Assembly: GCA_007128895.1 (NCBI GenBank)
Contig: SKWO01000052.1
Location: 1-32,587 of the forward strand
Source: Gammaproteobacteria bacterium
Lineage (GTDB): Bacteria > Pseudomonadota > Gammaproteobacteria > SKWO01
Length of the DNA stretch: 32,587 nt
Reading direction: 5' to 3'
Shown: one piece after another, positions 1,967 through 22,262 of the stretch
How positions within the stretch are numbered: the stretch's first letter is position 1
Layout of the letters: the number at the start of each line of letters is the position of its first letter
The notes under the pieces: model-generated
Told to the model about the DNA's origin: nothing
Seen by the model: only the letters and a program-made list of their open reading frames with translations
The model's database searches: none
Position numbers and translations under genes: made by a program

Positions 1967-2880
1967 GGGGAGGGCTCGCCGTTCGGGCGGGTCTTGAACA
2001 GGCGCAGGGTCCACATGTACTGGCGCGGGTCGCGTCGTACCATCCGTTCCAGCTCCTGGTTCATCCGTTCACTGCCGGCCTGCTCGTCATCGGTCGGGTA
2101 GTCGGTCAGGGGTGGGTCGATGGTGACGCGATAGGTGCCGGTGGCAGGGTCGAGGCGGGTCATGCAGGGCAGGATGGTCGCCCCGGTGACCCGTGCCAGA
2201 CGTGGCAGGGCGGTGATGGTGGCAGTGGGGAGACCGAAGAAGGGGAGGAAGCGCCACTCACTGCCGCGCACATGGCTCAGGTCCTCGTCCGGCAGGTAGT
2301 AGAAGGCGGCGCCGTGCTTGATCGCGCGGATGATCGGTCGTAGCCCTTCGTCGCGCGTATGCAGGTGCCCCCGGAAGCGGGTGCGCCCCCGCCAGACCAG
2401 TCGGTCGGCCAGCGGATTTTTCATCCGCTTGACCAGGCCGACCGCAGCGAAGCGGCGGCTGATCGCCAGGGCGCCGAAGTCGAGCGCGACGCTGTGGCCG
2501 GTGAGCAGGATCACCGGTTGGCCGGCCTCGACACAGCGCCTCAGGTGCGTCTCGCCCTCGACCATCAGCAGCCGCTCCAGTGCCGCTTCGCTGCGCCACC
2601 AGAGCAGACCGTAGTCGGCCACGGCGCACGCCATGGTGGCTAGGTTGTCGCGCAGCAGCGCCTCGCGCCATGCCGCGCTCTGTTCGGGGAAGGCCAGCGC
2701 CAGGTTGGTGCGCGCGATGCGCACGCGCCGGTTGTTGCTGCGCCGGTAGAGCGTGGCCACGCCGCGTGCGGTGGCATGGCGCAGCCGCCACGGCAGGCGC
2801 AGGAAGAGGCGGTAGAGGCCGAGCGCCAGCCATAGCGGCCAGTGGCGTGGGGCGGTCAGGGAGGCAGGCGAGCGGCTCAT
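1957..2880 (-). CDS. lipid A late acyltransferase, LpxL/LpxM family (second copy)
   Basis: 307 aa. The HX4D catalytic motif is H129-SVAL-D134 in TGHSVALDFG. FYYLPDEDL and the end PRQYMWTLRLFKTRPNGEPSPYD-like stretch fit the family. An N-terminal hydrophobic stretch (about residues 15-30) fits membrane attachment. It probably adds the other secondary acyl chain of lipid A, next to the convergent paralogue at 1028-1966; that division of labour is inference. The start overlaps the stop of the upstream fructosamine-kinase-like gene by 4 bp, so the two form an operon. The 3' end overlaps the convergent acyltransferase by 10 bp. Confidence 0.88.
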   Translation of the reverse strand: MSRSPASLTAPRHWPLWLALGLYRLFLRLPWRLRHATARGVATLYRRSNNRRVRIARTNLALAFPEQSAAWREALLRDNLATMACAVADYGLLWWRSEAALERLLMVEGETHLRRCVEAGQPVILLTGHSVALDFGALAISRRFAAVGLVKRMKNPLADRLVWRGRTRFRGHLHTRDEGLRPIIRAIKHGAAFYYLPDEDLSHVRGSEWRFLPFFGLPTATITALPRLARVTGATILPCMTRLDPATGTYRVTIDPPLTDYPTDDEQAGSERMNQELERMVRRDPRQYMWTLRLFKTRPNGEPSPYD

Positions 2881-3776
2881 CGGAGTTCGGCCAGCAGCCG
2901 CTGCACCATCTGCCCGGCCTGTGTGCCGTAGCCACCGCCGAAGAGATGGTGGTGGTTGAGCACATGGTAGAGGTTGTACAGATCGCGCCGTACCCGGTAG
3001 CCGGGGTCGCGCGGCAGTACGGCGTCGTAGGCGGCATAGAAGGCCGGGGGAAAGCCACCGAAGAGTTCGGTCATGGCCAGGTCGGCCTCGCGGTCACCGT
3101 GGTAGCTGGCCGGGTCGAAGAGCACCGGTTCACCGGCGCAGGTGGCGGCATTGCCGCCCCAGAGGTCGCCGTGCAGCAGGGCGGGGTGGGGGCGGTAGTC
3201 GGTGAAGAAGTGGTCGAGTTCGGCCATCAGGCGCTGTAGCGGATCGAGGATGGGGGTCAGTCCGTCGCGGTGTGCCAGCTGCCATTGGTGGCCGAGGCGC
3301 TGCTCGCGGTAGAAGCGGACCCAGCCATCGGCGAATCCGTTGGGTTGCGGCGTGGTGCCGATGAAGTTGTCCTGGGCCCAGCCGAACCGTTCGCGCTGTC
3401 TGCTGTGCAGGCGGGCGAGGGCGTGGCCGAGCTGGGTTGCGGTGCCCTGGTCAAGTGGGGCGAGGGGCAGGTACTCCAGGATCAGCCAGGCTGTCTTGTC
3501 GACGACCAGCGTGGCCAGTGGGCGCGGCACGCGCACCGAGCCGTCCTCGTGGAGCGCGTGCAGCGCCTCCTGCTCGGCCTCGAGCAGGGCCAGACGGTCG
3601 GCCCGGTTGCTCTTGGCGAAGAGGTCGCCACGTGAACTTTCCAGCCGCCAGGCGTGGTGGATGCAGCCGCCGCTTACCGTGGTGGCGCGGTGGAGGGTCA
3701 GCGGCGTGCCGAGTTGCCGACCGAGCGCGACGGCAAGCGCCGACCAGTCTTCTGTGGAGTCGCGTTTCAGGCCCAT
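2877..3776 (-). CDS. fructosamine kinase family protein
   Basis: 299 aa from the ATG at 3774-3776; an upstream in-frame ATG at 3824 would add residues unlike the family. The catalytic loop HGDLWGGN is at 202-209 (base D204), and a metal-binding FDPASYHGDREADLAM follows from 219. GGCIHHAW near 36-43 forms the nucleotide loop. This fold phosphorylates ketoamines (fructosamine-3-kinase family), a repair of glycated proteins; bacterial members may act on free ribulosamines or related sugars. The gene overlaps the downstream acyltransferase by 4 bp, so both should be made from one transcript, though no functional link is obvious. There is no Shine-Dalgarno sequence, but a -10-like TAGAAT lies 11 nt upstream. 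Confidence 0.85.
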   Translation of the reverse strand: MGLKRDSTEDWSALAVALGRQLGTPLTLHRATTVSGGCIHHAWRLESSRGDLFAKSNRADRLALLEAEQEALHALHEDGSVRVPRPLATLVVDKTAWLILEYLPLAPLDQGTATQLGHALARLHSRQRERFGWAQDNFIGTTPQPNGFADGWVRFYREQRLGHQWQLAHRDGLTPILDPLQRLMAELDHFFTDYRPHPALLHGDLWGGNAATCAGEPVLFDPASYHGDREADLAMTELFGGFPPAFYAAYDAVLPRDPGYRVRRDLYNLYHVLNHHHLFGGGYGTQAGQMVQRLLAELR

Positions 3777-4133: not shown

Positions 4134-6320
4134 ATGGATTCATGCATCCTTCGCGTCGCGATCCCGTCACCGCTGCGCCGCTTCTTCGACTATCTGCCCC
4201 CGGCGGCGCAGCCCGACGTCGCGGTCGGTTGCCGGGTCTGGGTGCCGTTCGGACGCACGCGGCAAGTCGGCGTGGTTGCCGCCGTGGCCGACCGCAGCGA
4301 GCTGCCACCGGAACGGCTGCGCCGGGTCGAGGCGGTGATCGACCCGACTCCGGTGCTGCCACCCTCGGTAACGGCGCTGCTGTACTGGGCGGCCGGCTAC
4401 TACCACCACCCGCCGGGGGAGGTGTGGCAGGCGGCGCTACCGGTGGCGCTGCGTCGAGGCGAGGTGTTGCGTCCGCCGCGCATCACCCGCTGGCAATTGA
4501 GCGAGGCGGGGCGCGCAGTCGATCCGGCGACCTTGGCGCGGGCACCGCGCCAGGCCGCGTTGCTGGCGCGACTGGCCGCCTTTCCCGACGGCGCCGGTAG
4601 CGACGAGCTGGCCGGTGAGGGGGATTGGCGCGGCGCCTTGCGTACCCTCTGCGACAAAGGCTGGGTGGTGCCGATCGAGGGCGCGGCGGTGGTGGCGACG
4701 GCAGCGCAGCCCGGCCACCCGCTCAATCCGGAACAGCAGCGGGCGGTCGATGCGATCGGCGCCGGGCTGGGCGGTTTTGCCGCCTTCCTGCTCGAGGGGA
4801 TCACCGGCAGTGGCAAGACCGAGGTCTACCTCCATGTGGTCGAACGGGTCCTGGCCGCGGGGCATCAGGTGCTGGTGCTGGTGCCGGAGATCGGTCTGAC
4901 GCCGCAGCTGGTCGCGCGTTTTCGTCGCCTCGGTGCGCCGCTGGCGCTGCTCCACTCCGACCTTGCCTCTGGCGAGCGGCTGGCGGCGTGGCAGGCGGCC
5001 GCCGACGGCAGTGCCCGGATCGTGATCGGCACCCGCTCGGCCGTCTTCACCCCGCTGCCGCGGTTGGGGCTGGTGATCATCGACGAGGAGCACGACGCCT
5101 CGCTCAAACAGCAGGAGGGCTTTCGCTATTCGGCACGCGATGTCGCGGTGTGGCGGGCGCGCCAGTGCGCGGTGCCGGTGGTGCTGGGCAGCGCCACCCC
5201 GTCGCTGGAATCGCTGGCCAACGCCGAGGCGGGGCGCTACCACCTGCTCCACCTGCCGCAACGGGCCGGCGGCGCCAGCTCACCGACGCTGCGGGTGGTC
5301 GACATGCGCGGCCTGTCGGTGCGTGAACCGCTGGCGCCGGCGCTGGAGACGACCATGCGCGAGCACCTGCAGGCAGGCGGCCAGGTGCTGCTCTTTCTCA
5401 ATCGGCGTGGCTTTGCGCCGGTGCAGATGTGTGGGGGGTGCGGCTGGGTCGGCGAGTGCCGCCGCTGCGATGCGCGCCTGACCCTGCACCGGCGCGAGCA
5501 CCGGCTGCGCTGCCACCACTGCGGTGCCGAGCAGCGGGTGCCGGAGCAGTGCCCGACCTGCGGCAGCAGCGAACTGGTGCTGCTCGGCCACGGTACCGAA
5601 CGCATCGAGGCGCTGCTGCAGGAGCGCTTTGCCGACCACGTGATCCTGCGTATCGACCGTGACAGCACCCGCCGGCGGGGTGCGTTGGAGGGGCTGCTGG
5701 CACAGGCGCAGGCGGGGCACGGTGAGATCCTGCTCGGTACCCAGATGGTCGCCAAGGGCCACCACTTCCCCGGCGTGACCCTGGTTGCCGTGCTGGACGC
5801 CGATCAGGGGCTTTTCAGTGCCGATTTTCGTGCCCCGGAGCGGCTGGCTCAGTTGATCGTCCAGGTGGCCGGGCGGGCCGGGCGAGCGGAGCGACCCGGC
5901 GAGGTGGTGATCCAGAGCCGCCAGCCGGCCCACCCCTTCTGGTCGCGTCTGCTCGAAGGCGGCTACCGGCGGGTCGCTGCCGACGAGCTGGCCGAGCGCC
6001 GCGCCGCCTGCTGGCCACCGGCCAGCCTGCTCGCCCTGCTGCGGGCCGAGGCGACCGGACAGGCCGCCCCGCTCGCCTTTCTCGAACAGGCGGCCCGGCT
6101 GGCGCGCCAGATCGGCCACGACGGCGTCGATCTGATGGGGCCGCTGCCCGCCCCGATGGAGCGGCGCGCCGGCCGCTACCGGGCGCAGCTCTTGCTGCAG
6201 GCGACCCGGCGCAGCGATCTGCACCGTCTGCTCGCGGCGTTGGCGCCGGCCCTGGAGGGGCTGGCCGAGGGGCGCCGGGTACGCTGGTCGCTCGATGTCG
6301 ATCCGCTGGAGCTGTTCTGA
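4134..6320 (+). CDS. priA: primosomal protein N' (replication restart helicase PriA)
   Basis: 728 aa, normal for PriA (E. coli about 732). The start at 4134 gives MDSCILRVAIPSPLRRFFDY, matching the family's N-terminal DNA-binding domain; a TTG start at 4074 was rejected. Walker A TGSGKT is at 224-229 and the DEAH-type box D317-E-E-H320. A zinc-binding insert holds eight cysteines from C433 (CGGCGWVGECRRC) to about residue 475. Motif V/VI-like GTQMVAKGHHFPG and QVAGRAGRAERPG are intact. PriA is a 3'-5' DNA helicase that recognises stalled forks and reloads DnaB. The leader carries a strong promoter and DnaA boxes. A methyltransferase gene starts on the base after the stop codon, so the two are co-transcribed. 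Confidence 0.97.
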   Translation: MDSCILRVAIPSPLRRFFDYLPPAAQPDVAVGCRVWVPFGRTRQVGVVAAVADRSELPPERLRRVEAVIDPTPVLPPSVTALLYWAAGYYHHPPGEVWQAALPVALRRGEVLRPPRITRWQLSEAGRAVDPATLARAPRQAALLARLAAFPDGAGSDELAGEGDWRGALRTLCDKGWVVPIEGAAVVATAAQPGHPLNPEQQRAVDAIGAGLGGFAAFLLEGITGSGKTEVYLHVVERVLAAGHQVLVLVPEIGLTPQLVARFRRLGAPLALLHSDLASGERLAAWQAAADGSARIVIGTRSAVFTPLPRLGLVIIDEEHDASLKQQEGFRYSARDVAVWRARQCAVPVVLGSATPSLESLANAEAGRYHLLHLPQRAGGASSPTLRVVDMRGLSVREPLAPALETTMREHLQAGGQVLLFLNRRGFAPVQMCGGCGWVGECRRCDARLTLHRREHRLRCHHCGAEQRVPEQCPTCGSSELVLLGHGTERIEALLQERFADHVILRIDRDSTRRRGALEGLLAQAQAGHGEILLGTQMVAKGHHFPGVTLVAVLDADQGLFSADFRAPERLAQLIVQVAGRAGRAERPGEVVIQSRQPAHPFWSRLLEGGYRRVAADELAERRAACWPPASLLALLRAEATGQAAPLAFLEQAARLARQIGHDGVDLMGPLPAPMERRAGRYRAQLLLQATRRSDLHRLLAALAPALEGLAEGRRVRWSLDVDPLELF

Positions 6321-17679: not shown

Positions 17680-20328
17680 ATGAGTCAGCCGACCCCCGTC
17701 TACCTGCGTGACTACACCCCGCCGCCGTGGCGGGTCGAGACGGTCGCGCTCGAGTTCGAGCTGGCGCCGCACGCGACGCGGGTGCGGGCGCGGTTGGCGC
17801 TGAGGCGTCATCCGAATGGCGACCCCGCCGCGCCGCTGGTGCTCGACGGTGAGGGGCTGCAGACGCAGCAGGTGGTACTGGATGGTCGCGAGCTGGCAGC
17901 CGGCAGCGGCTACCGTATCGACGGCAGCCGGTTGACCGTGCTCGATGCGCCGTCGTCGTGCGTGGTGGAGACCGAGGTGGTCATCAACCCACAGGCCAAC
18001 ACGGCGCTGGAGGGGCTCTATCGCTCCAGCGGCAACTACTGCACCCAGTGCGAGGCGGAGGGCTTTCGCCGCATCACCTGGTACCCGGATCGGCCCGACG
18101 TGATGGCCCGCTTCACGGTACGCATCACCGCCGACCGGGTGAGCTGCCCGGTGCTGCTCAGCAACGGCAACCGCCTCGACGGCGGTGAGCTGGCCGATGG
18201 TCGCCACTGGGCGCTGTGGGAGGACCCGTGGCCGAAGCCGGCCTACCTCTTCGCCCTGGTGGCCGGTGACCTGGTCTGCATCGAGGACCGCTTCACTACC
18301 GCGTCGGGGCGCGCGGTGGCGCTCGAGATCTATGTCCAGGCGCGCAATCGCGACCGCTGCGCCCACGCCATGGCGGCGCTGAAAAAGGCGATGCGCTGGG
18401 ACGAGCAGCGCTACGGCCGCGAGTACGATCTGGACCGCTACATGATCGTCGCCGTCGACGACTTCAACATGGGGGCGATGGAGAACAAGGGGCTCAATCT
18501 CTTCAACGCCTCGTGCATCCTGGCCGATGCGCAGATCGCTACCGACCGCGACTACGAGACGATCGAGGCGATCATTGCCCACGAGTACTTCCACAACTGG
18601 ACCGGCAACCGCATCACCTGTCGCGACTGGTTCCAGCTCAGCCTCAAGGAGGGGCTGACCGTCTTCCGCGATCAGCAGTTCACCGCCGAGACGACCTCCG
18701 AGGCGGTCAAGCGCATCCGCGACGTGACCCTGCTGCGTACCCGCCAGTTCGCCGAGGACGCCGGCCCGATGGCCCACCCGGTGCGCCCCGACCACTACAT
18801 CGAGATCAACAACTTCTACACCATGACGGTCTATGAGAAGGGGGCCGAGCTGGTGCGCATGCTCTACCACCTGGCCGGCCCCGAGGGTTTTCGCCGTGGC
18901 TGTGACCGCTACTTCGAGCGCCACGACGGCCAGGCGGTGACCTGCGACGACTTCGTCGCCGCCATCGCCGACGCCAACGGCCTTGACCTGAGCGCCTTCA
19001 TGCGCTGGTACGATCAGGCCGGCACCCCGGTGGTGCGCGCGCAGGGCCACTTCGACGCCGCCACGCAGCGCTACACGCTGGAGCTGAGCCAGCAGACGCC
19101 GCCGACGCCGGGGCAGCCGCACAAACGGCCGCTGCCCATCCCGCTGCGTCTCGGGCTGGTCGGCCCCGATGGCGCCGATCTGCCGCTGCGGCTGGAGGAC
19201 GAGGCGCCGGAGGCGGTGCCGACCGAGCGGGTGGTCGAGCTGCGCGAGGCGCAGCAGCGCTTCGTCTTTACCGGGATCGAACAAGCGCCGCGGCCCTCCC
19301 TGCTGCGCGGCTTCTCCGCCCCGGTGCGGCTGGCGTACGACGACAGCGACGACGACCTGCTCTTCCTGCTAGCCCACGACAGCGACCCGTTCAACCGCTG
19401 GGAGGCGGGGCAGCGCTTCGCGGTGAATGCGATCATGCGGCGCGTCGCCGGTGGTGGCGAGGACGACGCGGCGCAGCGGTTGGCTGCGGCCTTTGCCCGG
19501 CTGCTCGACGAGCGCGCGATCGATGCCGCCTTCGTCGCCGAGGCGGTCGCGTTGCCGGACGCGCTCTACCTGGCCGAGCAGCTGCCGTGGGGCGAGGCGG
19601 TGACGGTCTACGATCCGCAGGCGATCCACGCCGCGCGCGAGGGGCTGCACGCCGCATTGGCCGAGCTGCTGCGCGATACATGGCAGGCGCTCTACCAACG
19701 TCTGGACGACGCCACCCCGTACCGCTACGACGCCGAGCAGGCGGGGCGGCGTGCGCTGAAGAACCGTGCCCTGGGCTACCTGAGTGCGCTCGACGGCGGT
19801 GAGCGGCTGGCCGTGGCACAGTACGAGCGCGCCGACAACATGACTGACCGTATGGCGGCGCTGACGCTGATTGCCGACAGCGAGCAGTGCGCCGAGCGCG
19901 AGCGGGTGCTGGACGACTTCCTTGAACGGTGGCGCGGCGATGCAGTGGTGATGGAGAAGTGGTTCGCCGTGCAGGCCGCCTCACGCCGCCGCGATACGTT
20001 GGAGCGGGTGGGTGCGCTGCTGGAGCACAGCGAGTTCGATCTGCACAACCCGAACAAGGTGCGCGCCGTACTCGGCACCTTCGCCCTGCGCAACCCGGTG
20101 CGCTTCCACGACCCCTCCGGGGCCGGCTACGCCCTGCTGGCCGAACAGATCGTGCGCCTGAACGCGATCAATCCGCAGATCGCCGCCCGCCTGGTTACCC
20201 CGCTCGGCCGCTGGCGCCAGCTCGATGCGCCGCGCGGCGCGCAGATGCGTGCGCAGCTTGAAGATATTGCCGCCGCGCCACAACTGGCACGGGACGTCCA
20301 CGAGATGGTCACGAGGGCGTTGGCCTAG
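17680..20328 (+). CDS. pepN: aminopeptidase N
   Basis: 882 aa from an ATG with AGGAG upstream (E. coli PepN 870 aa). The exopeptidase motif GAMEN is at 265-269, and the zinc motif H301-EYFH305 lies in AHEYFHNWTGNR with the downstream Glu in SLKEGLTVFRDQQF. Positions agree with E. coli PepN (H297, E298, H301, E320). The long C-terminal helical domain is complete. PepN is the major cytoplasmic M1 aminopeptidase that finishes peptide breakdown. Its TAG stop is formed by the first three bases of a MITE-like element, so insertion fixed or altered the last residues (ending TRALA). The gene diverges from betT across 153 bp. Confidence 0.97.
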   Translation: MSQPTPVYLRDYTPPPWRVETVALEFELAPHATRVRARLALRRHPNGDPAAPLVLDGEGLQTQQVVLDGRELAAGSGYRIDGSRLTVLDAPSSCVVETEVVINPQANTALEGLYRSSGNYCTQCEAEGFRRITWYPDRPDVMARFTVRITADRVSCPVLLSNGNRLDGGELADGRHWALWEDPWPKPAYLFALVAGDLVCIEDRFTTASGRAVALEIYVQARNRDRCAHAMAALKKAMRWDEQRYGREYDLDRYMIVAVDDFNMGAMENKGLNLFNASCILADAQIATDRDYETIEAIIAHEYFHNWTGNRITCRDWFQLSLKEGLTVFRDQQFTAETTSEAVKRIRDVTLLRTRQFAEDAGPMAHPVRPDHYIEINNFYTMTVYEKGAELVRMLYHLAGPEGFRRGCDRYFERHDGQAVTCDDFVAAIADANGLDLSAFMRWYDQAGTPVVRAQGHFDAATQRYTLELSQQTPPTPGQPHKRPLPIPLRLGLVGPDGADLPLRLEDEAPEAVPTERVVELREAQQRFVFTGIEQAPRPSLLRGFSAPVRLAYDDSDDDLLFLLAHDSDPFNRWEAGQRFAVNAIMRRVAGGGEDDAAQRLAAAFARLLDERAIDAAFVAEAVALPDALYLAEQLPWGEAVTVYDPQAIHAAREGLHAALAELLRDTWQALYQRLDDATPYRYDAEQAGRRALKNRALGYLSALDGGERLAVAQYERADNMTDRMAALTLIADSEQCAERERVLDDFLERWRGDAVVMEKWFAVQAASRRRDTLERVGALLEHSEFDLHNPNKVRAVLGTFALRNPVRFHDPSGAGYALLAEQIVRLNAINPQIAARLVTPLGRWRQLDAPRGAQMRAQLEDIAAAPQLARDVHEMVTRALA

Positions 20329-20490
20329 CAGTCTGTCGGACTTAACGCTGATCTACTGCGGAAAAGCCGGCTTGGTCATATTTTCCGATCTTTCTCGTCA
20401 AATAGAACCACTATTCTCCTCAAAAGGTCGAAAAATCTGCCTCAAACCGGCTTCCCCTCGCTACGGCCGGTTAAGTCCGACAGGCTGCTA
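20326..20490. mobile_element. 165-bp MITE-like element with 21-bp terminal inverted repeats
   Basis: The ends 20326-20346 and 20470-20490 are 21-bp inverted repeats with one mismatch (TAGCAG(T/C)CTGTCGGACTTA plus 2 bases). GCC flanks both sides (20323-20325 and 20491-20493), a possible 3-bp target duplication. The interior is more AT-rich than its surroundings and encodes no transposase. The left end supplies the pepN stop codon; the right end encodes the last 15 residues and stop of the convergent phosphate symporter gene. The parent transposon is not in the window and its family is unknown to me. Confidence 0.75.
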
Positions 20491-22262
20491 GCCTCTTCAG
20501 GCAGCGTGTCGCCGGGCGGCTCTGAACCCGGTTCGACGGCTTCGGCAGGCGTACCTGTGGCGTCGTCGCCAGTGGACGGGGTGTCGGTGGTCTGTGCTTC
20601 GGCGTGCTCGTCGCCCTCATCCTCGTCGTCATCGTCGCTCTCGACCTCGGCGTGCAGGAGCTTGCGCAGCTTGTGGCTGTAGATGGCCGCCTTACTCGCC
20701 TGGTCGAGGATGCGGCGGATGTCCGAGAGCATGTCGAGGTGGGCGACCATGCGCCGGATGGGCAGATGGCCGGCGGTGCCGGCGTGCAGCAGGCGGCGTT
20801 TGGCCTCCTGATAGCCCTCTTCGCACGCTTTCAGCGCCTTGCGCAGCCGCTTCGGCTTGAAGCCGTCGAGATCGGCATCGGCCTGGTTGATCAGGGCAAC
20901 CGCCGCGCGCTTGTATTCGGCGATGCTGGCGGCCAGATCGGAGTCCTCGATATCACCCGGCTTGTTGCCATTGATCTCCAATGCGTGTTCGAGCATGTCG
21001 TCGTAGTACTGGGTGATGCGCACGCCGTTGGCAAAGGCGCCGGCCAGCTCTTCCGGCATGTCGGTACTGCGGGTGACCCGGTTGCTGAAATCGCCGACGG
21101 CCAGCACCAGCTTGTCGACCGCCCCCTTGTCCTGGGCCAGACGGCGCGCACTGCTGGTCTCGGCGCTGATCGACTCCTTGGCCGCGCGGCGGGCGATCTC
21201 ACCGATCCGTGTCAATTCGAGATTGAGTGCTTCCAACGCCAGGCTTGGGGTGCCGGCCAGTGTGCTGTCGAGGTGGCGCGGGCGGCCTTCATCCTCTTCG
21301 GCGGTGACGAAGAGCCGTTCCAGCCGGGCGACGATGAAGGGGGTCAGCGGCCACATGATCGTGGTGCCGGTCACCTTGGTCATGGTGTGGAAGATCGCTA
21401 AGGTGACCGCCGGTGTCGGGTCAAGGCCGAGCATCCGGGCGATGAAGGCGACCACCAGTAGCAGGAAGGGCAGGAAGGCAAAGGCGACGATGCCGGTGAT
21501 GACGTTGAAGATGACGTGCGCCAGCGCGGCCCGTTTGGCATTGGAGGTGGCACCGATGACGGCGAAGAGCGCCGTCGAGGTGGTGCCGATGTTGGCGCCG
21601 ATGACCATCGCCGCGGCTGCCGTGAGTGGGATCAGGCCGCTGCCGGCGGCGGTCAGGGTCACGGCCAGCGCGGCGCTGGACGAGTTCATGATGACAGTCA
21701 GCACGATGCCGATCATGACAAAGAGCAGCAGGCTGAGCAGGCCGCTGTCGGCAAAGCGCTCCAGGTCGGCGCCCTCGCCGAGGTCGCCGAAGGTCTCCTT
21801 GAGGATGTCGATACCCAGGAAGAAGATGCCGAAACCGGTCAGCGCCTCGCCCAGTGCGCCGCGCCGGGTTCCGGCGCCGGTGACGCGCAGCGCCATGCCA
21901 ACGGCAATGGCCGGCATCGCCAGTGCCTGCAGGTTGACCTTGAAGCCGACGATGGCGACCAGCCAGCTGGTGGCCGTGGTGCCGATGTTGCTGCCGATGA
22001 TGACACCGACCGCCTGGAAGAGGGTCAGCAGACCGGCGTTGACGAAGCCGATGGTGGCGAAGATGACCGCCGTCGAGGACTGCACCATCGCCGTGATCAT
22101 CACGCCGGAGGCGATACCGCGCGGCGTGGTGGCAGTGCCGCGGGCGAGGATCTCGCGCAGGGCGTCGCCGGCGGCCACCTTGAGGCCATCGGTCATCAGC
22201 TTCATGCCGAGCAGGAAGAGGCCGACGCCACCGAAGAAAGTCAGGGTCATGGAGAGATTCAT
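20442..22262 (-). CDS. Na+/phosphate symporter family protein with PhoU-like domain
   Basis: 606 aa from the ATG at 22260-22262 (a second ATG is four codons in). The membrane part (about 1-310) contains two Na_Pi_cotrans repeats: GGVGLFLLGMKLMTDGL, VQSSTAVIFATIGFVNAG and NSSSAALAVTLTAAG, with the QSS-type motifs that bind Na+ and phosphate. A PhoU-like helical region follows (about 340-535), then an acidic low-complexity tail. The last 15 residues (SSLSDLTGRSEGKPV) are encoded by the MITE-like element, so the original C-terminus was replaced. Phosphate import or export is the family role (YjbB, NptA). No ribosome-binding site is evident. It diverges from cobW across 58 bp. Confidence 0.9.
   Translation of the reverse strand: MNLSMTLTFFGGVGLFLLGMKLMTDGLKVAAGDALREILARGTATTPRGIASGVMITAMVQSSTAVIFATIGFVNAGLLTLFQAVGVIIGSNIGTTATSWLVAIVGFKVNLQALAMPAIAVGMALRVTGAGTRRGALGEALTGFGIFFLGIDILKETFGDLGEGADLERFADSGLLSLLLFVMIGIVLTVIMNSSSAALAVTLTAAGSGLIPLTAAAAMVIGANIGTTSTALFAVIGATSNAKRAALAHVIFNVITGIVAFAFLPFLLLVVAFIARMLGLDPTPAVTLAIFHTMTKVTGTTIMWPLTPFIVARLERLFVTAEEDEGRPRHLDSTLAGTPSLALEALNLELTRIGEIARRAAKESISAETSSARRLAQDKGAVDKLVLAVGDFSNRVTRSTDMPEELAGAFANGVRITQYYDDMLEHALEINGNKPGDIEDSDLAASIAEYKRAAVALINQADADLDGFKPKRLRKALKACEEGYQEAKRRLLHAGTAGHLPIRRMVAHLDMLSDIRRILDQASKAAIYSHKLRKLLHAEVESDDDDEDEGDEHAEAQTTDTPSTGDDATGTPAEAVEPGSEPPGDTLPEEASSLSDLTGRSEGKPV

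Follow-up and report, generated by a model that had tools for sequence, protein, structure and literature searches.

A CTAG-flanked MITE at the pepN/symporter junction of a gammaproteobacterial genome, with ends common to IS1182-family ISs and a full-length hairpin

The window (the whole stretch of DNA analyzed here, 32,587 nt, contig SKWO01000052.1 of assembly GCA_007128895.1 from Gammaproteobacteria bacterium) contained the two convergent genes pepN and a Na/phosphate symporter gene (named as such in an earlier note made from the sequence), with a mobile element located between the two and partly inside each of them. The features of this junction were as follows:

17680–20328, + strand: pepN, aminopeptidase N, 882 aa, with a native C-terminus
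20325–20328, no strand: left CTAG, the target word, holding the presumed native TAG of pepN
20325–20346, + strand: left terminal inverted repeat including the target word, common to IS1182-family ISs
20325–20491, no strand: the whole element as one imperfect hairpin, with compensatory changes in its stem over 30 copies
20326–20490: MITE unit compared across copies, 165 bp
20329–20487, no strand: MITE proper (CAG...CTG) in the CTAG-duplication reading
20442–20489, - strand: last 15 codons plus TGA of the symporter, element-encoded
20442–22262, - strand: Na/phosphate symporter gene, 606 aa
20470–20491, - strand: right terminal inverted repeat including the target word
20488–20491, no strand: right CTAG, the second copy of the target word

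The 165-bp element with 21/22-bp inverted ends at 20326–20490, as it had been described in the earlier note, was real: its arms (20325–20346 and 20470–20491) were 22 nt long and 95% complementary, its edge held the TAG of pepN (GCC-TAG, with TAG at 20326–20328), and it encoded the last 15 residues plus TGA of the symporter. It was short, carried no transposase gene, and possessed terminal inverted repeats, all of which are MITE characters. Because its ends recurred in at least 120 contig stretches and it folded far below shuffles, the 165 bp was not a chance arrangement, and the MITE-like nature proposed earlier was borne out. The source genome (81% complete, 86 contigs) contained one full element copy plus a few fragments (e.g., C31:139–156, near a contig end), and no IS1182-family transposase was found in this 81%-complete assembly.

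The end pattern was detected in at least 120 stretches of the GTDB genome collection, together with 10 stretches of the viral collection, and thus the case of no other copies anywhere, on which the earlier note would have been abandoned, did not arise. Its named hosts included beta- and gammaproteobacteria and Verrucomicrobia; the spacing of paired ends was mostly 164–167 bp, alongside classes of shorter and longer spacing, and each of the 16 genomes with a match had from 1 to about 110 end matches per strand. Many dispersed copies, as expected of a MITE, were accordingly seen across genomes, while the source genome had only one full copy. Copies left out of the counts were elements of >400 bp, copies with a repeated flank, and single ends (including single-ended matches at contig edges), as well as copies closer than 100 bases to a locus end (this limit was 40 or 60 in earlier counts); the count of flanking bases on 68 copies also kept elements of >1400 bp. 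A covariance model of the element recognized members in 10 of the 56 genomes of a class sample, the source genome included, and also matched genomes outside its training (G008, G014, G021, and G040). G052 and G055 displayed 27 and 19 matches of this model, respectively, and no IS1182 transposase match, and thus their element copies seem to outlive the transposase or to be moved by another enzyme.

Three further observations concerned the distribution of copies: (i) two 166-bp copies (2405–2570 and 2691–2856) were located 120 bp apart in locus L050; (ii) the ends were present in the MAGs L040, L119, L015, and L051, which bore the names Klebsiella pneumoniae, Bordetella parapertussis, and Akkermansia muciniphila, and poor binning, rather than a wide host range, may lie behind these names; and (iii) the sequence beside two MITE copies of Undibacterium (L206–L208 in G068; query 124–244 and 488–616) matched many places in G068, G233, G235, and G254, and it is another interspersed repeat of this genus.

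The same ends were found 1.5–3.0 kb apart with a transposase inside at four loci (L124, L036, L058, and L014). With the IS1182 model (cut-off 270), the three intact transposases tested reached 363, 316, and 333 bits and carried DDE and DUF772 domains; thus, 1.5–1.7-kb ISs shared the element ends and coded for a protein above the IS1182 cut-off. The type of the parent transposase could thereby be traced through the ends, as the earlier note had proposed, to the IS1182 family, and the ends common to the element and IS1182-family ISs assigned the former to the MITEs of this group. A protein search supplied 11 plasmid ISs, and the nine of them with both ends matched were all preceded by C and followed by G, which gives CTAG on each side. 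The MITE interior had no similarity beyond the ends to nine ISs compared with it, among which the true parent may not be included. A search of 20 genomes revealed no IS1182 transposase in 6, though these carried end or model matches. The 11 transposase loci examined in copy-bearing genomes comprised four with element ends on both sides (L335, L336, L337, and L349; L335 and L349 overlap), one with a single poor end match (L334), and six with none; as only some transposase loci had the element ends, several IS1182 groups coexist.

Two of the above IS loci had peculiar structures: the IS1182-type element at 1464–4471 of L014 (Pontiella sulfatireligans) was split by another transposase gene as a nested insertion, with the inserted ORF (2571–3434) being integrase-like by its sequence, and the transposase frame of the IS at 5743–7314 of L036 reached the very end of the IS, with TAG formed by the edge plus the flanking G. 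The IS1272 transposase is reported to lack its own stop in the same way, according to the accessible part of PMC4923244. A likeness of the GTTAAGT/ACTTAAC cores to integron attC was considered and dropped, these words being the ends of the transposon.

A GCC target duplication had been suggested for the element, and this was wrong: the repeated word was CTAG, flanking the element on both sides at 20325–20328 and 20488–20491. The MITE copies had C on the left in 64/68 and G on the right in 60/68. Exact empty sites were obtained for full ISs that share these ends: for three plasmid ISs, IS-free plasmids with 100/100 identical flanking bases on each side were available for comparison, and the empty site was CTAG in all three, with CTAG on both sides and no flank lost at the filled sites. 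At a fourth IS (L261 versus L275, flanks 87% and 85%), the aligned place read CAG rather than CTAG, and this comparison was uninformative or against a CTAG target. For MITE copies, the searches of 43 genomes for the genus Undibacterium (G068) and of 149 genomes for Pseudomonas gave only diverged homologues in place of exact empty sites, and no near-identical empty site was found for the pepN/symporter locus. Judged from the letters, the duplication is compatible both with CTAG and with TA inside C and G, and the TAG would be pre-existing either way.

The pepN end was read in 29 fetched relative loci out of the 38 relatives with a match: it lay within 6 residues of that in the window in 28 of the 29 and 13 residues later in the remaining one. 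Relative G048, whose genome gave no element match in either search, had a pepN gene ending in CTAG. Similar comparisons were made for two other MITE copies: (i) for the Undibacterium copy L206, 13 of 14 element-free homologues stopped at the same codon (TAG, TAA, or TGA), and the remaining one ended two codons earlier; and (ii) for the Pseudomonas copy L085, a stop (TAG or TAA) was present at the matching codon in three of the six homologues listed and in none of the other three. With the empty sites already reading CTAG and the pepN end kept in relatives, the pepN TAG appears to be native and part of the target, the element having landed on this stop rather than written it.

The change concerned the symporter tail only. 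With the element, it had 606 aa and ended in ...PEEASSLSDLTGRSEGKPV (equally given as ...EEASSLSDLTGRSEGKPV); with the flanks joined at one CTAG, it had 596 aa, ended in ...PEEARPTPS, and overlapped the pepN end. Symporter matches in relatives extended at most to residue 542, and in relative G019, which carried the same convergent pair, the genes were 220 bp apart and the symporter ended in ...SKRAEQK. Since this tail is not conserved in relatives anyway, the functional effect of the new one is probably small. The source genome also contained, at G000:C5:9341–10327, another symporter homologue that was only distantly similar (27% identity). Accordingly, the earlier claims that the element writes two stops and that one insertion reset both C-termini held for one gene each time: the symporter TGA and tail were element-encoded, while the pepN TAG would be copied from the target and its end was the same in 28/29 relatives. 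Conservation of both C-termini in relatives, named in the earlier note as counting against it, was likewise found for pepN and not for the symporter tail.

The gene context was tallied for 106 distinct copies, with genes called by a home-made codon model that was checked on the window only. There were 54 tandem, 25 convergent, and 18 divergent settings, plus 8 locus edges and 1 copy inside a called gene; the convergent/tandem/divergent split showed no departure from 1:2:1 (P = 0.32), and gene 3′ ends and gene starts facing the element showed no bias (107 versus 95; P = 0.44). A stop exactly in CTAG was found at 30 of the 107 facing gene 3′ ends, on 27 elements, which is well above chance, and any other stop distance accounted for at most 3 of the 107; at three elements, both convergent genes ended in the CTAG copies. 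The expected clustering of copies at gene 3′ ends was thus seen as exact landing on stops and was lacking as a general trend. Sorted by frame, 30 stops were at TAG, 3 in the next frame (-20), and 1, that of the symporter, in the third frame (-49), which speaks against random truncation, since the latter predicts similar counts in the three frames.

CTAG itself was scarce around the copies: in 546,360 bases from 101 loci, 297 CTAG words were seen outside elements versus 1952 expected from base composition (about 6.6-fold rarer), and these 297 were distributed as 170 in genes, 109 between genes, and 18 at stops. Copies were at stops in 27/105 as compared with 18/127 for CTAG words outside genes (Fisher P = 0.031, with copies being non-independent), a modest stop excess over CTAG supply. 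Because CTAG is rare and a C before a TAG stop makes CTAG, TAG stops are a natural landing place, and target choice together with loss of insertions inside genes is the simplest account of the positions. Landing at stops by means of stop-supplying ends, as envisaged in the earlier note, was not borne out; it follows from the CTAG target.

The same data bear on two rival explanations. The first, that the element ends supply stops and the insertion truncated or extended both genes, draws on the TAG constant at the edge, on the frame one step on (which stopped after 5 codons in 100/106 element ends), and on the element-encoded symporter tail; however, the empty sites were CTAG already, the gene ends of pepN and L206 were native, the stops were almost all in one frame, and the third frame was open in 29/106 ends (median run 29 codons versus 18 shuffled). 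This explanation is very unlikely for the element as a whole and stands for the symporter tail only. An all-frame stop device was also rejected: two frames stopped quickly and the third did not. The second, that insertion occurred in the IS1272 manner into terminator hairpins downstream of genes, with stops being hit incidentally, takes its support from IS1272/TnSha1, for which hairpin targets, blunt insertion, partial deletion of the target, and no duplication are described in the accessible part of PMC4923244, IS1272 belonging to the IS1182 family. It seems hardly tenable here: the mean complementarity of flanks was 4.28 versus 4.14 after re-pairing (sd 0.12), a flank score of >= 6 was reached in 10/68 versus about 9% re-paired, CTAG was duplicated with no flank loss in 3/3 sites, and convergent pairs were not in excess.

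The whole element folded into a hairpin on both strands: -73.8 kcal/mol on the + strand (z -9.3 versus shuffles) and -85.0 kcal/mol on the - strand (z -9.1). With the ends trimmed, 50 of the 53 approximately 166-bp copies were palindromic well beyond shuffles, and when six model-found loci were folded alone, three had z <= -6.6 and three had z from -1.6 to -2.4. Among 30 copies with <90% mutual identity, pair-keeping changes on both sides were observed in 29 of 45 pairs, with 201 compensatory cells versus 70 in shuffles; the covariation score was 0.388 versus 0.155 shuffled (sd 0.009) and <= 0.162 with the partners slid, the hairpin structure being derived from the same alignment, which favors it in the slide control, and the copies sharing descent. 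Interior G-U and A-C cells numbered 53 versus 54 (31 versus 54 without one mostly G-U pair), and given these about equal counts, the stem seems to be maintained at the DNA level or on both strands rather than as a one-strand RNA. Template-switch correction between arms could be an alternative source of the paired changes; a conserved mismatched block in the stem (left CTACTGCG, right CTCGCTACGA) counted against complete homogenization of the arms.

A functional RNA, such as a 3′-UTR stabilizer or terminator for the convergent pair, that is conserved for the host and incidentally mobile, would fit the compensatory changes in 29/45 pairs and the very high stability on both strands. It is nevertheless unlikely, as there was no G-U excess over A-C and hence no hint that the RNA of this strand is under selection, convergent or 3′ positions were not preferred, no T run followed the element, and 20200–20620 matched none of the Rfam families up to E 1. 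A bolder proposal, possible but rather doubtful, is that, in Proteobacteria and more widely, compensatory change keeps this approximately 165-bp family as a DNA-level hairpin (cruciform or single-stranded) over its entire length, the family persisting without a transposase and using CTAG stops as safe harbors beyond CTAG supply.

The element is very probably a MITE that is non-autonomous, forms a hairpin over its full length, belongs to an IS1182-type group, and was inserted into CTAG at the pepN end. The observations behind this explanation were the ends common to IS1182-family ISs, the CTAG at three empty IS sites, the native pepN end, the stop excess, and the conserved stem. An IS1182-type transposase, acting in trans and no longer present in the 81%-complete assembly, would have moved the element into a CTAG word with duplication of this word; the target CTAG would have been the pepN end (GC-C-TAG), and the pepN stop would have been retained in the left copy. 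The symporter, reading through CTAG on the other strand, would thereby have been shifted into element sequence from a reconstructed ancestral end ...EEARPTPS (596 aa), and the element-free pepN/symporter junction would read GGCCTAGCC. Copies at stop codons may have persisted as harmless ones, i.e., survived by lack of harm.

The resulting rule is that a CTAG-targeting element in CTAG-poor genomes often sits on TAG stops and leaves the protein intact, while the opposite-strand gene at such sites can gain a new tail; this CTAG rule replaces the appealing but wrong idea of a stop-writing mobile element. In addition, this MITE family is large and can be searched for, and its hairpin is supported by covariation, which allows tests of why bacterial MITEs keep long palindromes.

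No description of this MITE family was found in the literature searched, which was largely without subscription papers. ERIC/RUP-type repeats are intergenic imperfect palindromes of about 100–170 bp, and the element resembles them by this general description. IS1182-family ISs (e.g., the IS carrying WP_003458619, and ISAzo2) shared with the element the terminal repeat TAGCAGnCtGTCGGACTTa and the flanking C and G (CTAG), and the element differed from them in being 165 bp long and geneless, with an interior unlike the nine ISs compared. IS1272/TnSha1 resembled the element in the transposase family by name and in gene-end targets (accessible part of PMC4923244), but the element had a probable CTAG duplication and flanks that were not palindromic, unlike a hairpin-targeting one. 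In Pseudomonas syringae pv. actinidiae, the IS1182-family ISPsy36 has the target GGCC and ISPsy32 the target CTAG, as given in the available portion of PMC8027508. MITEPsy1 of Pseudomonas syringae makes a 4-nt duplication at CTAG (or YTAA) and moves in vivo, but it is 100 nt long, has other ends, and is related to ISPsy2 of the IS5 family (PMC3189936, in the part accessible). QMITE2 of Coxiella burnetii is a 150–190-bp palindromic MITE at gene 3′ ends, and in one strain it lengthens EnhC by 33 residues at the C-terminus; it differs by variable 7–11-nt repeats and a GTAG REP inside, and the accessible text of PMC5896051 describes no CTAG target. Thiomargarita MITEs have other end repeats than the element, going by their description in the available text of PMC4853749. 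The present MITE is thus ordinary in kind, and it is noteworthy for its CTAG/stop-codon rule and its compensated full-length hairpin.
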